Source of the DNA: Planoprotostelium fungivorum
Taxonomy: Eukaryota > Evosea > Variosea > Cavosteliida > Cavosteliaceae
DNA length: 64,000 nt
NCBI GenBank assembly: GCA_003024175.1
Contig: MDYQ01000035.1
Coordinates: forward strand, 172,154-236,153
Direction: 5' to 3'
Made by a program: the position numbers and the translations under genes. Positions 4,678 to 26,381 of the stretch are shown here, piece after piece. The notes beneath the pieces are model-generated. The model had not been told where the DNA came from. It did no database searches and worked only from the letters and a program-made list of their open reading frames with translations. Each line of letters starts with the position of its first letter. The stretch's first letter is position 1.

Positions 4678-7665
4678 ATGAGAGGCGCTCTCTCTCTCTT
4701 TCTCCTCTGTATCGCCCTCTCCCAGGCCATCGTGAGTCCTCTGTCACCATCGCCGCCTCTCATCTTTATCAGGAGTATGTGACGCCGGTAACTATCGTTC
4801 CTACCACTGGCTTCTTCTCTCCCCTCTATAAGGCAGACCCACCCGCCGTCTTCAAGTACACATTGAACGGACTGTTCGGCATCTCTTTCGATGCGGCCTT
4901 CTGCGATGGAAAACCCGCGTACTACTCGGCTGCCACCTGTTCCACCTATCAAGTCGTTCTGGGCACTTGGTTTGATGAGCCTGTTACCTTCTTTAGCCCT
5001 GCCTCCCTCGTTGTGGTTCAGACAGGTGAACACATCCGGGTTCCATCGTATCGCTGTCCACATCGTCCAACCCCATCATCATCCATCATCCACACCTCAC
5101 CATCTTCTATAAACTGACGAAAATAGATATCGTTCACATCACTCTGGGACAGAACTACACCTCCGAGAACCCCACCAGCTACCAGTTCTCATCCGACGTT
5201 CCCTACCTCTATACATTCACTCAGGAGGGCTTTGGCTTCGATCGAGTGGACTTCAGTGACAAGTTCTACGCGCCTGCCAACGCAACCTTGCTCACTACGG
5301 GTTTAGGTAAACACTTGAGACCGTAGAGTGGCTGACATTCACATCAGCCTACCCGCTGTACGCCACGACCTATCCTACGACGTTTGAAGTGCAAGAGGCT
5401 GGCTCCACTTTCGTGTATCAAGGCGTGACATATCCCACCAATGATGTCATCTGCACTTCACAAGATGCCGTCGTTCTCGTGGATCAAGCTCCTTTCACCA
5501 TCTTTGACGTGAGTGGAAGAGATCGACGTGTCACGTGTTGACCACGTTTCAGTTCCTACCCGCTCGCACCTGCAAAAACTTCGCATATTACAACAGTGCG
5601 TACACAGCTACAGTCATCTCCACTCAGACACCTGCCACACTGAGCGTGTCTGCGTCGGGCATGTACGATGTCACTTGTCAGACGTACGGCAACTCGACCT
5701 CCAACTATGTTCTCGTCAAGCTGGTCAACACCGACGCCACTTCTAAGGGAGGTATCATCAATGGTAACACCATCTCCTCTCGACCTGGAACGTTCGATGC
5801 CGTCTTCAACTGCGGTGCTGATACAAGCTTCCCCTTGAACATCAAAGTGAACGGACCCTGTGAGATATCGATGTCACACGATGCACCCTCTCACATCTCA
5901 CAGACAATGAAGTGGTCAGCTTTACCTCCGAAGGGCACTTGTTTGGTTATCCCCAGGATTTCTACAAGGTCAACGTGCAGGCTGGCATCATCTCTGATCC
6001 ATCGGCTGATAATCCGTTGAAGGACTATGGAGGACAGACTTGGTAAGAGGAAACAAGTCTTTGTATCTCCTTGCTGATCATGTCACGACAGCTCCACGGG
6101 TACGCCTTTCAACTATTTCGGCACCATCCCCATTGCCGAATTCAGTTGTGAGTCACTGCACCTTTTGTACTTGAGCTGACGCGATGTCAGTGTGTTACAC
6201 GGTCAATGGCAGCACCGTCATCGATGTCCCTGACAGGAACAGTGCCTTCATCATCCAGCCACCTGAGGGATACTGCATCAGAAGTGATGGCATTCCCAGC
6301 AACTCGTCCAACTATGTCTCTCTGTTATCGGACACTTCCTCTTCTTTCTTCTACGAAGACGAGAACACACCACTGTACACTATCACTTGCTCCACTGACA
6401 CCTTGTACGTACATCTGAATGATGCGCAACCGATGACAGTCAACTTCACTCTCGGTGAGTGATATCATCTACAATCCATTCACTGACAGAATGATAGTTC
6501 CCATCGCTGGACAAGGAGTGTACGGACAGACCTACGACATCGACGGTCTCTTGATCCTTCAGTATCCCCCCCTCACAGCCCCCGCTGGAGTCCTATCAAT
6601 TCATTTTGCTGAATCGGCCAACAGTCCCGTTCCTGTCAGGAATACGCGAATGCAAGGAGGAAAGAGAGCAGTGTCCGACGGCTTCATGTTTTTCAGCAAC
6701 ACCCTGAAGACCAACACCTCTCCTCCTTCTGAGTTCATCTTGCTGGCGAGGGGACAAGGACAGATGACGGTCAACTTGGCTACCAGTGAGTCATGGTGTG
6801 AAGACTTTGGCATGACGAAATGTCAGTTAATGGATTGAACGTGGACTACAACAACATCTCTTCTAGCAGCTCTTCCACCGAGTCGAGCAGCTCCACAAGC
6901 TCTGACGAGTCCACAAGCTCCACCAGCTCTGACGAGTCCACAAGCTCCACTAGCTCTGACGAGTCCACAAGCTCCACAAGCTCTGACGAGTCCACTAGCT
7001 CCACCAGCTCTGACGAGTCCACTAGCTCCACCAGCTCTGACGAGTCCACTAGCTCCACCAGCTCCGTAGAATCTACCAGCTCCACTAGCTCTGAAGAGTC
7101 CACAAGCTCCACCAGCTCTGTCGAATCAACAAGCTCCACTAGCTCTGAAGAGTCCACAAGCTCCACTAGCTCTGAAGAGTCCTCCAGCTCCACTAGCTCT
7201 GAGGAATCTACCAGCTCGACTACACTCGACACTACCAGCTCGACTACACTCGACACTACCAGCTCGACTACACTCGACACTACATCTGAGGAGCCATCGA
7301 CCGAGTCACCCTCTACCTCCTCTGTCAGCTCTACCACCTCCACTTCACTCGACACTACCTCCGAGGAGTTATCTACCGAGTCACCTTCTTCTACCTCCAC
7401 CACTTCCGTACAGTCTACCACATCTTCCACCTCTTCCACCTCTTCTTCCTCCACCTCTTCCACCTCTTCTTCTTCCACCTCCTCTGTCGTGACTTCGTCA
7501 GAGAGTGAAGAGGGTGCCACAGACTCTTCCACTACCACCACGACGTCTGCCTCTGTGTCTTTCACAGACACCTCTGTGTTACCAGACAACGTCACGAGTG
7601 ACAGCTCTATGGTCAAGGCATCTGTCCTCTCAGTGGTCGTCATGGTCCTCTTTTATCTCTGCTGA
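4678..7665 (+). CDS. Secreted Ser/Thr-rich surface protein, paralogue B (complete)
   Basis: Complete member of the local family. Exon 1 (4678-4731) encodes a signal peptide (MRGALSLFLLCIALSQA); exon 2 starts at 4773. The first module carries TTGFFSPLY and a conserved cysteine pair (CDG...CSTYQVVL). The next exons repeat the block order of paralogue A, with short introns at matching positions. The stalk from about 6865 to 7480 is almost entirely Ser, Thr, Glu and Asp, built of DESTSSTSS-type 27-nt units and then TTLDTTS repeats. The C terminus (SSMVKASVLSVVVMVLFYLC) is a hydrophobic tail ending at the stop, like a GPI-attachment signal. This architecture suggests a heavily O-glycosylated, membrane-anchored surface protein. 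I do not recognise the ectodomain fold. High similarity to A, introns included, indicates recent tandem duplication. Confidence 0.85.
6874..7214 (+). repeat. 27-bp coding minisatellite in paralogue B
   Basis: About a dozen 27-nt units encode DESTSSTSS, with later units switching to EESTSSTSS. The array is longer than in A and shows its own unit variants (ACAAGC versus ACCAGC), consistent with local homogenisation after duplication. Three copies of a 27-nt TTLDTTSS-type unit follow at about 7209-7285. Confidence 0.9.
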
Positions 7666-13996: not shown

Positions 13997-14305
13997 ATGA
14001 AGATTTCAGACATCGTCCACCGCACAAACACGTCCTCATTACCTCCCATCGATTTCACTTCGACCAGTGGAATCCACGAAGAGGAAAATAAGAATGCTCC
14101 CGATGTACCAGAAGCGGCAGCGAGAGCGAGGAGAGTGGTACTTCCTCAAGAGCAGAAGGACTACTTGGAAGCCATCTTCCAAGAGAAACCTTATCCCGAT
14201 AATGAGCTGAAGATGGAGTTGGCGGAGAGGTTCAAAACGACACCGAGGAAGATACAAGTGTGGTTTCAAAACAGACGCCAGAAACAGAAGAGTGAGAACG
14301 GATGA
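13997..14305 (+). CDS. Small homeodomain protein
   Basis: Intronless 102-residue frame. A homeodomain occupies about residues 42-101: ARARRVVLPQEQKDYLEAIF, the turn KPYPDNELKMELAERFKTT, and recognition helix KIQVWFQNRRQKQK, with the invariant W, F, N and R present. It is 60 residues with no three-residue insertion, so it is not TALE type. Only about 40 residues (acidic, Ser/Thr-rich) precede the domain, and almost nothing follows it, so no effector domain is visible. Expected role: sequence-specific DNA binding in the nucleus. An unrecognised upstream exon could extend the N terminus. Confidence 0.85.
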   Translation: MKISDIVHRTNTSSLPPIDFTSTSGIHEEENKNAPDVPEAAARARRVVLPQEQKDYLEAIFQEKPYPDNELKMELAERFKTTPRKIQVWFQNRRQKQKSENG

Positions 14306-14522
14306 ACACGGGTAGCATATGTTACGGGTGATCGTGATCGCATACACTGTGGACTGAATCTCGTCAGATATCAGTGAAGAATCGAATTTATTAAGACCGA
14401 GAGTGATGAGGTCGATATCATGAGGCCACACTTGTGAAAATCGCAAATAAAACAATAATGTTCGTGATTTCATCATTTCATCATTAGCATTCAAGACGAG
14501 GCCTCCTGTGTGATACGACGAA

Positions 14523-15185
14523 ATGAGTTACGTTAAATCGGCTTCTGCCTTCTTGACAGACATGGATGAGATCATTCCCAACTTGTATCTGGGCAACATG
14601 AGAGCAGCTCAGACCAAGGCCTTTTTAGATAAGTACATGATCACGCATATCTTGACAGCAGCCACCTCAATATCACCCGAGTACCCCGAGGTTTATGATG
14701 TGATTCCAATGATGTCTCATTTCAACAGGATTACATCTATAAGGTGGTGCACCTATACGATCAAGAAGAACAAGATCTGTTCGAATGTCTTGAAGACAGC
14801 TTTCGATTCATAGATGAGGCTTTGCGAGGGGCCGGAACCATTCTTGTTCACTGGTGACGTTTGTTCCATTCGTATCATCTAATGACAAATCCTATAGCGC
14901 CGCTGGCGTCTCTAGATCGGCGTCCATCGTGATAGGTTATCTCATGTGGTCAAGAAAGAAGTCTTTCCTCGAGGCCTTCACTTTTGTCAGGTACCTTCAT
15001 CTCTCCATCAACATCTAATGTCTCGTATCAGATCGAAGAGACCAATCATAGGACCGAACGATGGATTCATGTGGCAGCTGCAACTGTACGAGAAGATGGG
15101 TCTCAAGATAGATCCGAATCATGAGGAATATCGCCTGTGGATGAACCATCGAGATGACGTGGTGAAGCAGTTTTTTATATCATGA
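14523..15185 (+). CDS. Dual-specificity protein phosphatase
   Basis: Four exons (14523-14690, 14729-14853, 14898-14990, 15032-15185) encode about 180 residues. The catalytic signature HCAAGVSRS (H-C-x5-R) spans the second intron, so neither exon alone shows it. It is followed by the DUSP-typical ASIVIGYLMW. The start region (MDEIIPNLYLGNMRAA) matches the usual opening of the domain, and the general-acid loop is around YDQEEQDLFE. The protein is little more than the catalytic domain, with no kinase-binding or lipid-binding extension, so it resembles atypical DUSPs that dephosphorylate Tyr and Ser/Thr residues. The substrate is unknown. It converges on the receptor gene below; their stops are about 70 bp apart. 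Confidence 0.92.
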
Positions 15186-15255: not shown

Positions 15256-17794
15256 CTAGATGACATCGATGATGCTGTAAGAGTCTTCGTTCTTGTCGTT
15301 TTGAAAGAAGGATTCTCCCGCTTTCGTCCTCTCCTCTAGCTGTCTGCAGATGCGAGAGAATTGAAGTCTCTCTTCTGGATCTGTCTTTGTGCTGTCCTCG
15401 TCTCAACTGATGGAGAGATCTTCGATGACTCACCATCGGACCACGATGGACGTCAAGTGTTCCATCCATTCTGGTCCGGTGATGAGTTCGACTCCAGGTT
15501 GGATCATCTTGATCCTCTGATCGTCATCAGCCGTCGCGAGAGCCACACTACCATTAGGGGGGCCTGTTCGTCTGTCATGAGTTCTCATCCTCTTTCTACA
15601 GCTCACCGTGTGAAGAGCGACATCTTCCACGTTCGTCTTTGTACCGTCCGGGACGCAGTGATAGAATCCACACAACTTGGTGAAGAATTGGTCGCCTTCC
15701 CTCCTGCACAAAATCTGTTGTGATGTGAGATGACGGTCGACTCTGATCTTGACGATGATGATGTGGGAGACATTTTGATGAGCAACTCACTTTTTTTGGA
15801 GTGAGGCGAGTGTGAACTATCTTCATCTCACAGAGGTACTGCATGCCCGTAGCAATCTGCTGTGCACTAAAGAACGTTAAGCTTGGAGAAGAGATGAGAT
15901 GGAATAGACGGTATTACATCACAGCCAGGTGAGGTTGGGTAACCACTCCCACCACATTCTCATCGATCCATTCAATGTAGTAGTACATTCCTGAGACATT
16001 CAGACAACAATAATGTCACACTACGTCACCTCCATCGGTCAAATTTTGTCCCAGATATGTACAATATTAGGATGGTGTAGTCCCTATCTCTCTTCAATCT
16101 CTTCCTTCTATTCGTTTCCCACCTTCAGTACGGTTGCTTCTCTGATCAGATCACTCCTCATCTTACCATCGATGCTCTTCTTGACGGCCACTTGTGTGGT
16201 GTCACTGTATATTCCCTTCCATACTTCGATCCTCTCGTTCTGGTTGATCAAACGATCGAACTCAATGAGATGGAACACGTCGTTCTTTGCTTCCTTTAGA
16301 ACAGACGTTTCATCGTATTTCTGTCGCACATTCAGATCATGGGACGATGATGTGAGATTAGGGTCTTTGTGTGAGATGATGAGGCGAAATAGGATATCTC
16401 TCCTCACCTTCCGTCTTACGATGATCAGAACGACCAACAACGTAACCATGGAGATGAAAGTACCTCCCACGGCAGCTCCAATGATAGTGTACTTGTTGCT
16501 ATCCTTTGATACCGCTGAACTTGCGGCCGCTTGCTGTGCTGTTGGTAGAATCGGAGAGCCCAAAGTGAAGTTGGTCAAGTGATTGCATTGACACGTGACT
16601 CGATCAGACACGTACAACGTCTCACAGCCTTGTTTCTTCCATCCAAACTCTACCTCTCCCCAGTATAGACAAGTCAAGTCTGTGGTGACGTCAATTCACA
16701 CCGTTGTAGATGCGCGATCACTGGCGGGAGAGGATCCGATGGAGATATTGATGGGATGGGATAGATTGGACACATCCATCTCGACTGCCCCGTCGTAGAG
16801 AAACACTCCAACGACACGTCCAGGTCTGTTGAAGAGTCAATCAATGAAAATTTCCATCGAACATCATCACACGGAGAAGGCGGTATCTTTTGGAAAAGGG
16901 CTCAAAGGGATGACAGACATCCATGGTAACATCTGTGCACAGTTGAAACTTCGGTATCCATGGATCAGATCACCCGTCGTCATGACGGCGGTGGGCATGG
17001 AAGCTGACACGTCATCATCGAGTTGCAGAGATAAGCTAGAAGCGTTGTAGACGGAAGACAAGGGTAAAGTGAGGGCCACGAGGGATATATTACCCGATCG
17101 TATACTGAAAGAGGAGATGTTGCCCATCGGAATCGAAGTGACCACTGCAGTCAGGAGAGCAGGTAGCTGTTCGCCTCATTCGCGATCGAGATGATATGAC
17201 GATGAGATCCCCTGGTCTGCGGCTGTTGTGGAGTGCGCCTCTATGATATTCTAAAGTTACGTGAGTCGCTGCATCCCAATGAGTAATCACCTCTGCCTCG
17301 ATGACCGTGAAGTAGAAGAGCTGGTCGATGATGTTGAAAAGCTGGATGATGAAGTGAATGAGCTGGACGACGCCGCCGTAGAGCTGGTCGATGATATTGA
17401 AGGGTCGATCGATGACGTTGTAGAGCTGGTCAACGATGTTGACGGTGATGACGTCGAAGAATGGTTGACGACGTGGAAGAGCTGACCGATGATGTTGAAT
17501 GACTGGTCGTTGAGGATGAAGAGGTCGTAGATGGGTCGGAAGTGGAGATGTAGAAGAGTTTGAAGAAGTCACGGGAGGCGTTGGCGATGAAATTGAGGAA
17601 ATTGGTTGTGGAGATGTCATCGATGATGATGCTTCCGAAGATGTAGTTGTCTAAGACGTCGTGTGAGTGGCGACGGTGGGCTGAACTGCGGTCGCCGACT
17701 GCCCGATAGATTTTAGGCCACTGCAATGGCCTCATTTTATGAGGAAAAGGATGAAGAAGCCAAAGACGAAGATTGAGAGACCAAGCGACCACAT
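15256..17794 (-). CDS. Single-span receptor: GPS motif, TM segment, tyrosine-kinase-like pseudokinase
   Basis: Reading 5' to 3' on the minus strand: an N-terminal hydrophobic stretch (ATG at 17794), a Ser/Thr-rich stalk whose frame needs an unresolved intron or shift near 17430-17500, then a GAIN-like segment (about 17145-16730). A complete GPS motif follows at about 16677-16560: TCLYWGEVEFGW, GC, TCQCNHLTNF, with the HL/T cleavage site. One membrane span (about 16520-16450, GGTFISMVTLLVVLIIV) is followed by a kinase-like domain. The VAVK lysine is kept, but the Gly loop reads NERIEVWKGIY, HRD is HTR, DFG is LCG, and the activation segment is very short. The end, CTKTDPEERLQFSRICRQLE, is a normal kinase C-lobe tail. 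It is therefore a predicted pseudokinase. GPS motifs are known from adhesion GPCRs and polycystins; no seven-span domain is present here. Confidence 0.8.
16702..16710 (-). repeat. Intronic CGTTGTAGA motif in receptor gene
   Basis: In the intron at about 16680-16720 (minus gene), the transcript reads CATCTACAACGGTG and then AATTGACGTCACCACAG, combining the TCTACAACG motif with a TTGACGTCA near the acceptor, as in the peptidase and acyltransferase introns. Confidence 0.6.
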
Positions 17795-17977: not shown

Positions 17978-19362
17978 CTATTCAATCTGATTACAGAGAG
18001 CCCCGATGAAGTTGACCACCGCCTCTGGTACTTTAGACAACAAGTATCCCCCCTCGTTCGTGATCATGATCGGTATGCCCCTCATCTCTTCTCTCAGCTG
18101 TCTTCCCATTTGAATAAAATCGTCTGGTTGTAGCTTCATGCCTCGCAGGTTGCTCGGGTCTGGATCACCTGTGTCGTGTCATTCGAAGAATGAAATAGAA
18201 TAAATGGTGAACCGACTGATATATTCTCACCTTCTAACGTGTCTGAACCAAAAGCGACAACCAGATGAGTGATGTCCAATCGTTTGAGCCACTCTGTGAC
18301 TGACGTCAAGGCGGGAGAGTAATGTTGGTCGAAGGTGGCGCCGGTGGGGAGCGGCAGGTTGTAGTTTGTCCCTTCACCCTCGCCTTCACCTCTCTGGTGA
18401 GGTAGACCCCAGAAGATCGGATAATCTAATTCTCCGTGGATGGAAGCCGTCACGACATCTCCACGCCGCCAGAATATCTATCGAGGGTGAGAAAACTCTT
18501 TCGAGTTTGGAGATCGATCATGTGAGACGAGATAAACGATGATGAGCAGGAAGAGGGTCGCTTGATGTAATTGGACGATGAATGAGACGATAGAGAGTGG
18601 ATAATATTGAGGATGTATTACAATGATCATAATGACGTGTAAGATGAGTCTTACCTGCTGGGCTCCATCTCCAGCGTGATAGTCTAAATCCAACAGACCC
18701 ACTCTCTTCGCTCCCAATTCTCTCAACTTGCATGCAGCCAATGCAGCATTGTTGAAGAAGCAGTATCCTCCATAATGATCCCGTGTAGCATGATGTCCTG
18801 GTGATGAATTGATGGCGTAGTAGATGAGCGATGGATCTCGCATGAGCATCTCTGCTGCCATGACGGAGTTCTTTGCCGATGTCGTCGCTCTGTGCCACGT
18901 CTCGAGTAGGATGGGAGTGGACATGTCTTTAGCGAAGATGCCACAGCGTAGATATACGGGTAGAGTTGGTAAGAGAGCCTGGTTCGAATAGATTAGAACA
19001 TGGAATGTGATGTATGTGAATCTGAATTGAGATGGATGATGTGATACCTTCTTGTCTGCGTCAGAGAGTCCGAGGGCAAAAGTGTAAGGGACTAGGCCAC
19101 CTTCTGGCGTCCACCAATCGTCATCGTTGACTCGCATTCCCTCTTCATATGCGATTTTGAGGAAATCGATCAGCTCCCGACTGTGAACGGACATCAGTCC
19201 ATCGTCAGACAGTCCTTCAGTGTTGATGATCAATTGCACATCTTTCAATCTCCTCTCTAATTCTGCCAAGATCAAGTGCTGTCTCTTCTCAGGCTGATTC
19301 GTTCCTACGGCCCTGGCAGAAGGCGGTGGACCTTCCGTCTTGTCATAGATCACGACCACCAT
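17978..19362 (-). CDS. Acetylpolyamine amidohydrolase-like deacetylase (HDAC superfamily)
   Basis: Four exons encode a zinc-dependent deacetylase of the arginase/HDAC fold. The start is placed at MVVVIYDKTEG (19362); an in-frame ATG lies at 19404. Active-site landmarks: the His pair in SSPGHHATRDHYGGYCFFNN, zinc ligands in LDLDYHAGDGAQQ, the third ligand Asp in AFGSDTLEGDPDP (spanning the last intron) and the catalytic Tyr in TNEGGYLLS. The stretch RRGDVVTASIHGELDYPIFW and the GTNYNLPLPTG segment resemble bacterial acetylpolyamine amidohydrolases (AphA) more than class I or IV histone deacetylases, so acetylated polyamines or other small amides are likelier substrates than histones. No signal peptide or extra domain is seen. 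Bacterial ancestry followed by intron gain is an inference. It lies 162 bp downstream of the receptor's start, in the same orientation. Confidence 0.87.
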
Positions 19363-19492
19363 CTCAATTGTGATGTTCTCAAAGATGCATTGTAGAGGTA
19401 TCAATCACAATAAATTCGATTACAGATCATTTCTCTCGTTCAAATACAGAATCATTTATACATATGTACAAGCCGTGGCCCACGAGGTCCAG

Positions 19493-20407
19493 TTACATCA
19501 AAATCTTCACGGTAGCTCTCTTCTCAGGGTCGATGGTCAGCAGTCTAGACAGCTTCTCTCTCGTGCTGTGAGACACTTGGATCTCATCCGTATTGTCTGG
19601 TAGAGGAATCGACGTGCAGTGGTGGAAGTTTTGCATCATCTCATGAAGAGCGTACGGAAACCTTCCAAAGAGGAGAGCGAAAGTGGTGACACCCAGCGCC
19701 CATGCATCGACGAGGGTGGACCTCAGAGGTGTTTGTTTCGTGATCTCCGGTGACATGTATTCGGCACTGTAGAGGGTGAGCTCCTGGTGAAGAATGAGGT
19801 GATGGGTTTACCTTCCGCAGTAGTCCACCGACTGGCTCTCTTTCCCGTCTACGGTTTGGAAGAAGGTACATAGACCAAAGTCCACCAAGAAGATGCGGTT
19901 TTTGTCGAGATCCATCATGATCTGGGGGACGATTAGGGGAGTCAAGAGATAACGAGGCTCACATTTTCTAATTTGACATCTCTGTGTGCGATCCCCATTC
20001 TATGGCAAGAATGGAGAGCGGAAGCCACCTTCTTCACTATCTTACAGACAACCTTCTCTTCCATCGGCTCGAAGCTGCGTCGTTCCATCAGAGTAAAGAG
20101 ATCGATGCCTCGAATGACATCGAAGACGAGGCTCTATACGAGATCAGCTCCACCTTCTTCACCCATCGCTCACCGTCTCCCGTGTGTTGTCGATGTAGCC
20201 GTGAAATCCGCAGAAACTGCGGCTTCTCCCTTTCAGCATGGTGTTGGCCTTGATCTCATTCGAAATGCGTTTGTTGTCTTCGTGTCTTTTCTTGGGTATC
20301 CTCTTCACAACAACATCCTTGTTTGTCTTCTTGTCTTTCGCCGTGAAGACTTGACCGTATGTACCTTGACCCAACCTCTCGAAGCCTTGAAAGCGTGGCT
20401 CGGCCAT
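19493..20407 (-). CDS. Small Ser/Thr protein kinase, CAMK-like
   Basis: Four exons encode about 265 residues, a kinase domain with no extra domains. Visible motifs: Gly loop LGQGTYGQVF, lysine DVVVKRI, catalytic loop GIAHRDVKLENIM, DFG as LVDFGLCTFF, activation-loop end DYCGSAEYMSPEI, and LVDAWALGVTTFALLFGRFPY. All residues needed for catalysis are present. The GTxxYxSPE-type P+1 loop and the alpha-F sequence place it near CAMK or CHK1-like kinases. The domain ends soon after KLSRLLTIDPEKRATVKILM, so regulation must come from partners or loop phosphorylation. The substrate is unknown. Confidence 0.92.
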
Positions 20408-21048
20408 ACCTATATGACCTCCTGCGGTGTGGCGGAGGTGCAGAATAGAATAGAACAGAACCGATGTCTCACGGGTGGATCTGTGATGCCCGTCTATTTA
20501 ACGGGCAGAGGTGTCCGATCTGTCTCCTGACTCCTCGACTTAGGATCTCACGCGATCGTCCTTGAGTGAGTGAAAGGGGTGTTTCTATGCATTTTCGGAA
20601 CACCCGTGGCAGACGGTGACAGCCGCCATCACTCTATCCTGACTGGACACTTCCTCTCACAGGCAGCCTCTATACCACACGATATACAAGACACAACTCC
20701 TATCTAGACGAGAGAGGCTCACCTGATATAGAATGCAACGATCAATTGACGATGTATCGTGGAGGAAATTTCAACCAAATCTCACCACCGTCATCCATCG
20801 TCACGAAAATTCGGAGCTCAAAATAATAGATTTCGTGTGGAGACGGTGAGAGGTCAGAGACCTTATCAGCGTCTTAATCATTCAGATTAAGACTTCGATT
20901 TGTACTTGCGTGTACTCGGAAGACGTCACAGCTCTGAATCCGAACCTTTAAGAGGCCTCATCATCGGACAGTGATGTCGCAAAGATGGGACTCCTCCGTT
21001 CAAGTCCATCCGCACATCATCATCGCGGACTGAAGTCTTCTTCCTTCT
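20408..21048. other. Intergenic region
   Basis: About 640 bp between the kinase start and the CD36-like gene stop, both on the minus strand. No supported gene. The kinase promoter should lie at its left side; TATTTAACGGG occurs near 20495. Confidence 0.4.
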
Positions 21049-24030: not shown

Positions 24031-26381
24031 TCACAAGAGAGCGAGAAGCACAGCCGCAGAGAAGACAGTCGCCTTTACGATCAAAGCATCGCTGACCGGT
24101 TTGTTCGCGGTGACGATCGGCACGACCATCGTCGATATCCCCCCTGCGCCAGCACCTCCATCAGTCGGTGTTCTGGTGGCATCACCTCCTCCCGACATTG
24201 TTGAGCTGGATGAAGTGCTCGTAGGATTAAGGTGGTAGTTCGTGTCGTAGCCCACGTTGACTCCGATATCTATCCACCGATCAGTTGACATCACATGATC
24301 TCATCACTCACTCGTACCCAAATCGACAGAAAATCTTCCTCGACCGAGAACGGCCACCATGAATCTGTACAATGGAAAATCCTTCGTTCTGAACGCATCC
24401 ATCGTCTGATCATTACCGATCACCGCACGTTTGGCAGAGTTTCTGTATTGCTCGAGTGTGACGACGTTGCGGAGGATGTCTAAGGAGCCGGAGGTGTTGA
24501 TGGACAAGACGCCGGTGGAAGCTGTGAGGGGAGGATACTGAAGGATGAATAGACCGTCGACGTCGTATGTCTCTCCGTACACTCCTTGTCCATCGATGGG
24601 AACTGTTGTCGTGTCAGACTTTGACTTGTCGATGATCACCACATCGGAGGATGATCGTGAAAATAACGACACTGACCGAGAGTGAAGGTGATTGTCATGG
24701 GTGCTGGAACGTCCGGATAGACGTAGAGTACGTCGGAAATGCAAGTGAGAGTGAATAACTTCGCATCACCGTCCTCGTAGAAGAAGGAGGACACGTTCGA
24801 GATGATTGTGAAATCGTTTGTCGAGTTGCTGGGAATGCCTTCACCTCTCAGACAGTACCCCTGAGGTGGCTGGATGAAGAAGACGCTCTGATGGGCAGGA
24901 ACATTAAAAGTAAAGTTATCTGTGACTACATAACAAGCTGAGATCGATCAGACGTCACGACGTGGAGGAGACCTCTCACGAGAAAATGTTCCAAAAAGAT
25001 TGTAACCGAAGAATTTGAAGCTCGTATTGGTGTTCGGACTATGCGCATATGAGACTTGTGAGGTGAGATGAACTCACCAGGTTGGATAGGGGTAGACGAA
25101 AGTCAAATATTCGCTGTGTAATGGATCGAGCGTGACGTTGGCCGGAACGTTCATGTCGTAGAAACCGATATCCGATAGCGGTGTAAGTTGGTCGAACTTG
25201 GCATCGACCTTTTCGTCTGTACTTTCGTTTAGATATTACAAATGGATGAGAGCTTCACAAGGCCCATTGACATGAATTTCGAGGGAGAATGTGTCACTGC
25301 CGCGGCAGTTAACGGGAACGACTTGAGTACCGTGGAAATTATCGTAAAAGTATCCTTCGTACTCTCTGGTACCGTTCAACTTGACGAGCGCATATCGATC
25401 GGAAGAGTTGCCGACGGTCTCGCAAGTGACGTTGTAGATGCCGGTGTCGTATGCGATGAAAGAAGCTGGAATATCGTACGACATAGCCGTGACGTTATAA
25501 CTTCCCGTCGGTAGGTAGTCTACATAGTTACCGTTTCCGGGCAGGAGGGTCTGATTCCACTTTAACGAGAATAATAGAGAGTCTCTCACTTGATAGTTGT
25601 TCGTGCCGTCGGTGACCAGAAGAATCTTCTGTGATGAAGTGATGAGGGGTGTTGCCCCGTAAGAGACGTTCTCGTATACGAAAGAGAGACCGTCATCGAA
25701 GACTTCAAACGAGAAGGTCTTGGGGAGGCTTGTGACGTACATCGGATTGACTGGGTTTAAGGTTCAGTGAGAATGTTGGTAATGAAATGACCCACCGAAG
25801 CCGTTCATGCTCAGAGTTGTATTGGCTGACAGGCGAGTGATGGAAAATAAACTTGCTGTGAAAGTGGCTATATATTGTCTTCCGCTCTGTTTCAGTGCTC
25901 CATTGTATGGTTTGGAAGACGTAACGTTCACAAAGACATCGACGGGAGAGGTATAATTCGTGCCCGGTATGAATGGGATCTGCACGATGGCTGACGATGT
26001 CGTCAGTGATGAAAAGAGTGATATGACGGGGCTCACGTGTCTTCACCAAGGTGATGTTGATCGGTCTGGATAATAGAAAAGTGTGGTTCAAATTGGTGTA
26101 CAGCAGGACCTGGTATGTCATGCACGGACCACCCACGTCTTCCGATCCATCACAGAGGTACATGGCGTTGATCGGTTCCTCATAGTAGAACCCAGATTGG
26201 AGCTCGAAATAACATGGAGGTTCTGCCGTCAAGAGGGGAGTGAAGAAGCCAGTGGGTGGGATGCTGCTGACCGGAGTCGTATGTACCTGAAGAAAGTGAG
26301 AGGGGTGATGAGCGTGGAGGGACTTACAACGGCATGAGAGACAGCGACACAGAGGACGAAGAGAGACAGAGTGACTCTCAT
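24031..26381 (-). CDS. Secreted surface protein, paralogue C (short stalk)
   Basis: Same family as A, B and D, on the opposite strand. The start at 26381 gives a signal peptide (MRVTLSLFVLCVAVSHA). Landmarks: PPTGFFTPLLTAEPPCYFEL, CMTYQVLLYTN, PGTNYTSPVDVFVNV, CETVGNSSDRYALVKLNG, VNGPCE, QPPQGYCLRGEGIPSN, SSFFYEDGDAKLFTLTC and GVYGETYDVDGL. Unlike the others it has no long Ser/Thr repeat: after NVGYDTNYHLNP there is only a short TSSSST/Gly-rich spacer and then a hydrophobic tail (VKATVFSAAVLLALL) ending at 24031, like a GPI signal. It shares intron positions with A and B. It is the closest relative of the decayed copy E at 62.6 kb, including within an intron. The function is unknown; a surface or extracellular matrix role is inferred. 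Confidence 0.8.

Follow-up and report, generated by a model that had tools for sequence, protein, structure and literature searches.

Introduction

Most of what is known about self-cleavage by the GAIN domain comes from seven-span receptors and polycystins, in which the exposed stalk acts on the membrane spans. Polycystin-1-like proteins have a channel partner and are not known to carry a kinase. Receptor pseudokinases form a separate class that includes plant receptor-like kinase (RLK) pseudokinases, ErbB3 and ROR, while in JAKs the JH2 pseudokinase regulates a linked active kinase.

The accessible part of PMC12716839 dates GAIN to before Holozoa and derives the GAIN-7TM module from stem holozoans. 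It also describes the GPCR-TKL/K and GPCR-TK proteins of choanoflagellates, each a receptor with a C-terminal kinase, together with kinase fusions in oomycetes and amoebozoans. In that part of the source the choanoflagellate GPCR kinases are given neither a pseudokinase label nor a GPS, and they have seven spans as against one in the GPS frame described below. Polycystin-1-like GPS proteins have eleven spans according to the available portion of PMC9672506, unlike the family reported here with its one. A one-span ADGRE2 construct is reported to get to the cell surface, and GAIN processing to be helped by membrane tethering (PMC12488864), so that the full set of seven spans is not strictly required there.

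Here, we analyze a stretch of 64,000 nucleotides from Planoprotostelium fungivorum (contig MDYQ01000035.1, hereafter the window; positions are counted from its first letter) and the 36.86 Mb, 471-contig assembly that contains it. The window holds one copy of a large family of GPS-bearing receptors. With adhesion GPCRs the family shares a GAIN-type profile and an HLT-containing GPS beside the membrane; unlike these seven-span receptors, it combines one span with an intracellular pseudokinase. As in polycystin-1-like proteins, the GPS adjoins the membrane. LRR receptor-like kinases and receptor pseudokinases are resembled in the LRRs (15 of 45 loci), the one span and the kinase-like domain without catalytic residues, whereas the GPS and GAIN-like region between LRRs and membrane sets the family apart from LRR receptor-like kinases, the loci having been picked by their GPS. 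Among the matches listed in searches of the open full-text literature, no description of a GPS/GAIN one-span kinase was found; the terms "GAIN domain" and "pseudokinase" together gave nothing in this literature, and "GPS motif" with "pseudokinase" gave only a shedding database. The modules themselves are known; what is new, as far as searched, is their joining in so expanded a family.

Results and discussion

The receptor locus lies on the minus strand of the window. An open frame of 195 amino acids without an intron (16695-16108) encodes TCLYW, CQCNHLTNF, a membrane span and the VAVKK-containing N-lobe of a kinase. Pfam PF01825 recognized the GPS motif (16674-16564) with E 1.2e-9 and 38.9 bits, against a cut-off of 22.5; HLTNF lies at 16581-16567, and HLT is predicted to be cut between its L and its T. 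Based on hydropathy, a single membrane span was placed at 16491-16417, where the 19-residue mean reaches 2.6; this is the sole stretch above 1.5 within the GPS frame, in which the span is followed by the kinase and no seven-span domain was found. The N-lobe covers 16266-16123, with VAVKK at 16191-16177 in frame with the GPS. A preliminary description of the locus had claimed a GPS beside a single span and a retained VAVK lysine, and both are found here. Since GPS, span and N-lobe share one open frame, their join does not stem from a mis-joined exon. With the window copy excluded from its construction, a family profile scored 414 at this locus; the antisense strand gave 86, and none of 20 shuffles exceeded 102.

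Upstream of this frame the copy is harder to read. A putative start (17794-17735) consists of an ATG and 20 mostly hydrophobic codons followed by TGA, with open segments in three frames, and a Ser/Thr-rich stalk (17650-17289) with up to 32 S/T in 40 amino acids likewise extends over three reading frames. The GAIN-like region (DVSASMPTAV ... GRVVGVFLYDG ... NLSHPINISIG, 17157-16722, with an intron at about 16930-16826) comes next; the family profile of this region, from which the window row is absent, matches adhesion-GPCR GAIN structures. A 42-base phase-1 intron (16721-16680) lies between the GAIN and GPS exons, in a position and phase shared with many relatives; given this match, the TGA just before the GPS was dropped as a candidate lesion.

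Downstream of the N-lobe, the HHPNIV exon (16083-16039) ends in an in-frame TGA at 16041-16039. Enumeration of in-frame GT-AG paths from there to the MYYYIEWID exon at 15988 returned 0 with one intron and 0 with two. The latter exon (15988-15918) encodes the hinge and has a phase-2 donor as in relatives. It is followed by an exon (15866-15791) with VHTRL for HRD (15817-15803), which on its own matched Pfam PK_Tyr_Ser-Thr at 17.6 bits (E 0.0025), below the cut-off of 23.1. In the next exon, ILCRREGDQFFTKLCGFYHC... (15714-15607), GFY stands for DFG (KLCGFY, 15678-15661). A phase-0 GTGAGT..AG intron yields ILCRREGDQFFTKLCGFYHC in the window copy, so the DFG site is read as GFY and both aspartates are absent, in agreement with the loss of the HRD and DFG aspartates claimed initially. 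The site had previously been read as VDR; GFY is preferred since both the phase-0 intron and the relatives fit ILCRREGDQFFTKLCGFY. The APE...DVWSFG block of relatives, which forms helix F there, is missing at about 15606-15532. What remains of the C-lobe are a late exon, ADDDQRIKMIQPG...TSIVV (15531-15434), and the last exon, TKTDPEERLQFSRICRQLEE... (15391-15256), whose stop codon at 15258-15256 completes the C-lobe tail that had also been reported. The proposal of one gene from 17794 to 15256 is thus confirmed for GPS, span and N-lobe, which occupy one frame, and needs correction for the frame break, the missing block and an ATG that runs for only 20 codons. The window copy is probably a decayed family member, a pseudogene, or else mis-assembled; judged by the frame break and the missing helix-F block, the molecule it encodes is probably not functional.

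To place this copy among its relatives, the genome was searched with PF01825, which gave at least 150 GPS motifs over the Pfam cut-off (150 of 176 candidates scored). Four paralog kinase queries were then compared with the 150 listed motifs. For 99/150 motifs, the same strand carried a family kinase match no more than 1.5 kb downstream; within 1.5 kb upstream there were 0/150 and antisense 0/150. For contigs above C90 without C281 (six loci read there), the downstream count was 64/102. The 49 motifs without a kinase match, even with added rows, include several that do have a kinase when read. We read 51 loci using gene models from a home-made spliced aligner: 44 in 40 stretches, the window copy and six from the top of the GPS list, a non-random sample confined to contigs C1-C90, the window and these six motifs. 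A kinase-like domain was present in 50 of them (44/45 and 6/6), one being cut by a contig end and one, C58:66573, degenerate. Spliced-aligner scores were at least 380 in 44/45 loci, the degenerate-looking C58:66573 scoring 380 and C36, without a kinase, 126. Antisense nulls stayed at or below 146 in 43/45; the two exceptions (576 and 584) are the convergent family genes C58:331384 and C58:334229. Three spliced pseudokinase paralogs matched Pfam PK_Tyr_Ser-Thr at 7.4e-37, 2.7e-27 and 3.2e-29. Outside the window, span counts refer to the best span scored per GPS frame, and a 7tm_2 profile search of the genome gave no match, a negative of little weight, its control being silent too. The suggestion of a GPS receptor with a one-span pseudokinase and no seven-span domain is therefore carried far better by the family (50/51 kinase-like, 45/47 without the HRD aspartate) than by the damaged window copy for which it was made. 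GPS genes are clustered on contigs C351 (10 GPS), C1 (7), C58 (6) and C196 (6), and the contig pairs C5/C120 and C185/C187 show equal GPS scores and are perhaps haplotype duplicates.

HLT is kept in 51/51 loci read (45/45 and 6 further). Using a GAIN-region profile of 14 paralogs, 21 adhesion-GPCR PDB sequences were matched at E 0.0037 or better, among them ADGRF1, ADGRG1, ADGRG3, ADGRL3, ADGRG6 and BAI3. The alignments to ADGRG1 (9s9u, 6.2e-9, positions 47-155; 5kvm, 2.2e-7, positions 43-150) and BAI3 (4dlo, 0.0017, positions 49-156) reach well N-terminal of the GPS; many others add little beyond it. The Pfam GAIN model (PF16489) found no match in three spliced paralogs or the window fragment, and none in a search of the genome, which likewise carries little weight because the control was silent too. 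A GAIN fold N-terminal to the GPS, as had been envisaged, thus receives backing from the family profile, which matches adhesion-GPCR structures beyond the GPS, and none from PF16489; on this profile comparison, a GAIN domain at this position is supported. Further upstream, LRR-type repeats were detected at 15/45 loci within the 2.2 kb searched (antisense 0/45; window copy 0), and Pfam LRR_1 matched two of the LRR segments, from C34 and C85, at 1.1e-14 and 3.7e-19. S/T stalks are present in 8/45 loci including the window.

Catalytic residues were assessed in the same gene models, excluding C36, C58:66573 and L003 at both sites and C58:343658 at the HRD site as not assessable. The HRD aspartate is absent in 45/47 loci and the DFG aspartate in 37/48. 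Both are lost in 36 of the 47 loci, only that of HRD in 9, and 2 keep both. The HRD aspartate is kept in C33:10946 (HGDV) and C1:310224 (DIDL), in the latter of which the VAVK position aligns to T. The 11 loci keeping the DFG aspartate are C33, where the site (YDFS) was missed by the aligner and read by eye, and ten members of the C1/C69/C196/C335 clade (WDFR or WDLR). At the VAVK position, lysine is found in 36/45 rows, a count that includes the spurious C36 row, and another residue in 9/45; the APE glutamate is aligned in 43/45. With its VAVK, HGD and YDFS, the GPS gene C33:10946- (locus L026) is a candidate catalytically active member. In the WDFR/WDLR loci (L009, L011-L013, L039 and L005-L008 on C1, C69, C196 and C335), HRD is mostly replaced by DNI, DYR or GNI and the VAVK position varies; several of these members carry S/T stalks and lie in clusters.

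When the kinase profile was compared with the PDB, the best match was 7t6f ("Tyrosine-protein kinase"), which we take to be JAK1, and the third was TYK2 (4oli). The first matched domain of 7t6f has HGNV where the family has HTxL or HGxx. JAKs are cytoplasmic, have a tandem active kinase and are not known to have a GPS, unlike the GPS-bearing one-span receptors of this family. The JAK-type best match, considered together with the control that JH2 exerts over a linked active kinase, suggests by analogy an allosteric or partner role for the family kinase domain.

In 15/15 close pairs (more than 120 codons, proportion of synonymous differences below 0.6), kinase dN/dS was 0.16-0.41. The pairs derive from 11 genes in three clusters, all HT or HG members, and are consequently not independent; gene conversion can distort them as well. 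Read from the codons, these ratios show purifying selection on the kinase in close paralogs of two clades. For the GAIN region, dN/dS was 0.17-0.81, and the two highest values involve C58:343658. Many paralogs share intron positions and phases (query 51 phase 0, 67-69 phase 1, 96-98 phase 2, 122 phase 0 and 147 phase 0). In a tree built from 42 domains, a single change suffices for the HT rows (94/88; 97% of the bootstrap trees), 7/8 HG rows form one clade (99/95), the WDFR clade received 100/100 and the window copy groups with C28 at 89/86. The placement of C33 is unsure because of its long branch.

Several other explanations have to be weighed against these data. Introns separate the GPS exon from the C-lobe exons, and one might think of two neighboring genes or of an assembly join; however, the uninterrupted frame in the window and the order and strand shared in 99 of 150 cases, with nothing upstream or antisense, leave next to no room for this idea, which was rejected on these grounds. 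It is conceivable, if rather unlikely, that an assembly or base-calling error produced the damage in the window copy and that the organism carries an intact gene. Most of its other splice sites and phases agree with relatives, and HRD and DFG are both legible in the second window kinase, so that the motif reading is not at fault. Two things speak against an intact gene: a C-lobe block is missing in addition to the frame break, and the S/T stretches of the N-terminus fall in three frames.

At the scale of the family, most members could be pseudogenes in decay, which would make it a graveyard of receptor kinases. Such decay is seen in the broken window copy, a stop inside the GPS of C61, the absence of a kinase from C36, the degenerate C58:66573 and an HRD exon absent from the C58:343658 model. 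The low kinase dN/dS of all 15 close pairs (two clades only), the recurring intron positions and phases and an HLT motif in every locus read argue to the contrary, and we hold wholesale decay to be very improbable; the relatives of the window copy in the same genome look functional. An equally doubtful possibility is that the domains are active kinases working by an unusual route, with other residues standing in for the aspartates. Residual activity is known for some pseudokinases, the VAVK lysine is present in most rows, the APE glutamate is aligned in nearly all, and selection acts on the kinase domain in the tested pairs; aspartate loss in itself does not prove loss of kinase activity. Yet 36/47 loci have lost both aspartates, and the replacements are many and different (at the HRD site R, A, Q, I, N, S and further residues), leaving no single conserved substitute.

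Taking together the architecture, family size, GAIN-type profile, HLT, loss of the HRD and mostly also the DFG aspartate, usually kept VAVK and intron phases established above by sequence comparison, we favor, with a probability of about two in three, an expanded family of the order (LRR and/or Ser/Thr stalk) - GAIN/GPS - one span - pseudokinase, whose members would be GAIN-cleaved and signal as scaffolds, the window holding a decayed copy. In such a receptor, the GAIN domain would cut itself at HL/T, resulting in a non-covalent two-part molecule whose outer part may be changed or removed by a ligand or by pulling on it. The single span could then relay the signal by dimerizing or clustering, and the cytoplasmic domain, presumably unable to transfer phosphate, would serve as a docking or allosteric module. 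Pseudokinases might also be paired with the rare members that keep both aspartates, e.g. C33:10946. There is no seven-span pocket here for a tethered agonist; the conserved TNFSIG may be important as the final strand of GAIN, or it could instead act on a partner. The mode of action suggested initially, tethered-ligand or shear sensing with a scaffold or ATP-switch output, is likewise putative.

A broader proposal is more tentative, and we would sooner doubt than assert it: in about 100 or more genes of one unicellular eukaryote, GAIN self-cleavage may act as a force- or ligand-released switch of kinase-dead one-span receptors, with a tethered element that works without seven spans. Signals would then pass mainly through dead kinases, and a few active members would serve as shared effectors. 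If true, a large selected family of one-span dead-kinase receptors would show GAIN to be a portable switch, help to tell its role from that of the seven spans, and offer many natural pseudokinases for the study of dead-kinase signaling.

The receptor locus is surrounded by several other genes. Directly upstream lies a histone deacetylase gene (18136-19404, minus strand; PF00850, E 9.8e-28), followed by the second window kinase mentioned above (minus strand, about 19480-20500), which has an intact HRD (HRDVKLEN) and DFG. On the other side, a dual-specificity-phosphatase-like gene (14514-15185, plus strand) is convergent with the receptor locus, its DSPc match being weak (one exon, E 0.01, below the cut-off), and a homeodomain-like frame (IQVWFQNRRQKQK) was seen by eye at 14050-14305 on the plus strand. 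Two further proteins, at 5508-7665 (plus strand) and 24031-24947 (minus strand), look alike by eye, the first carrying a long STSSDES repeat.
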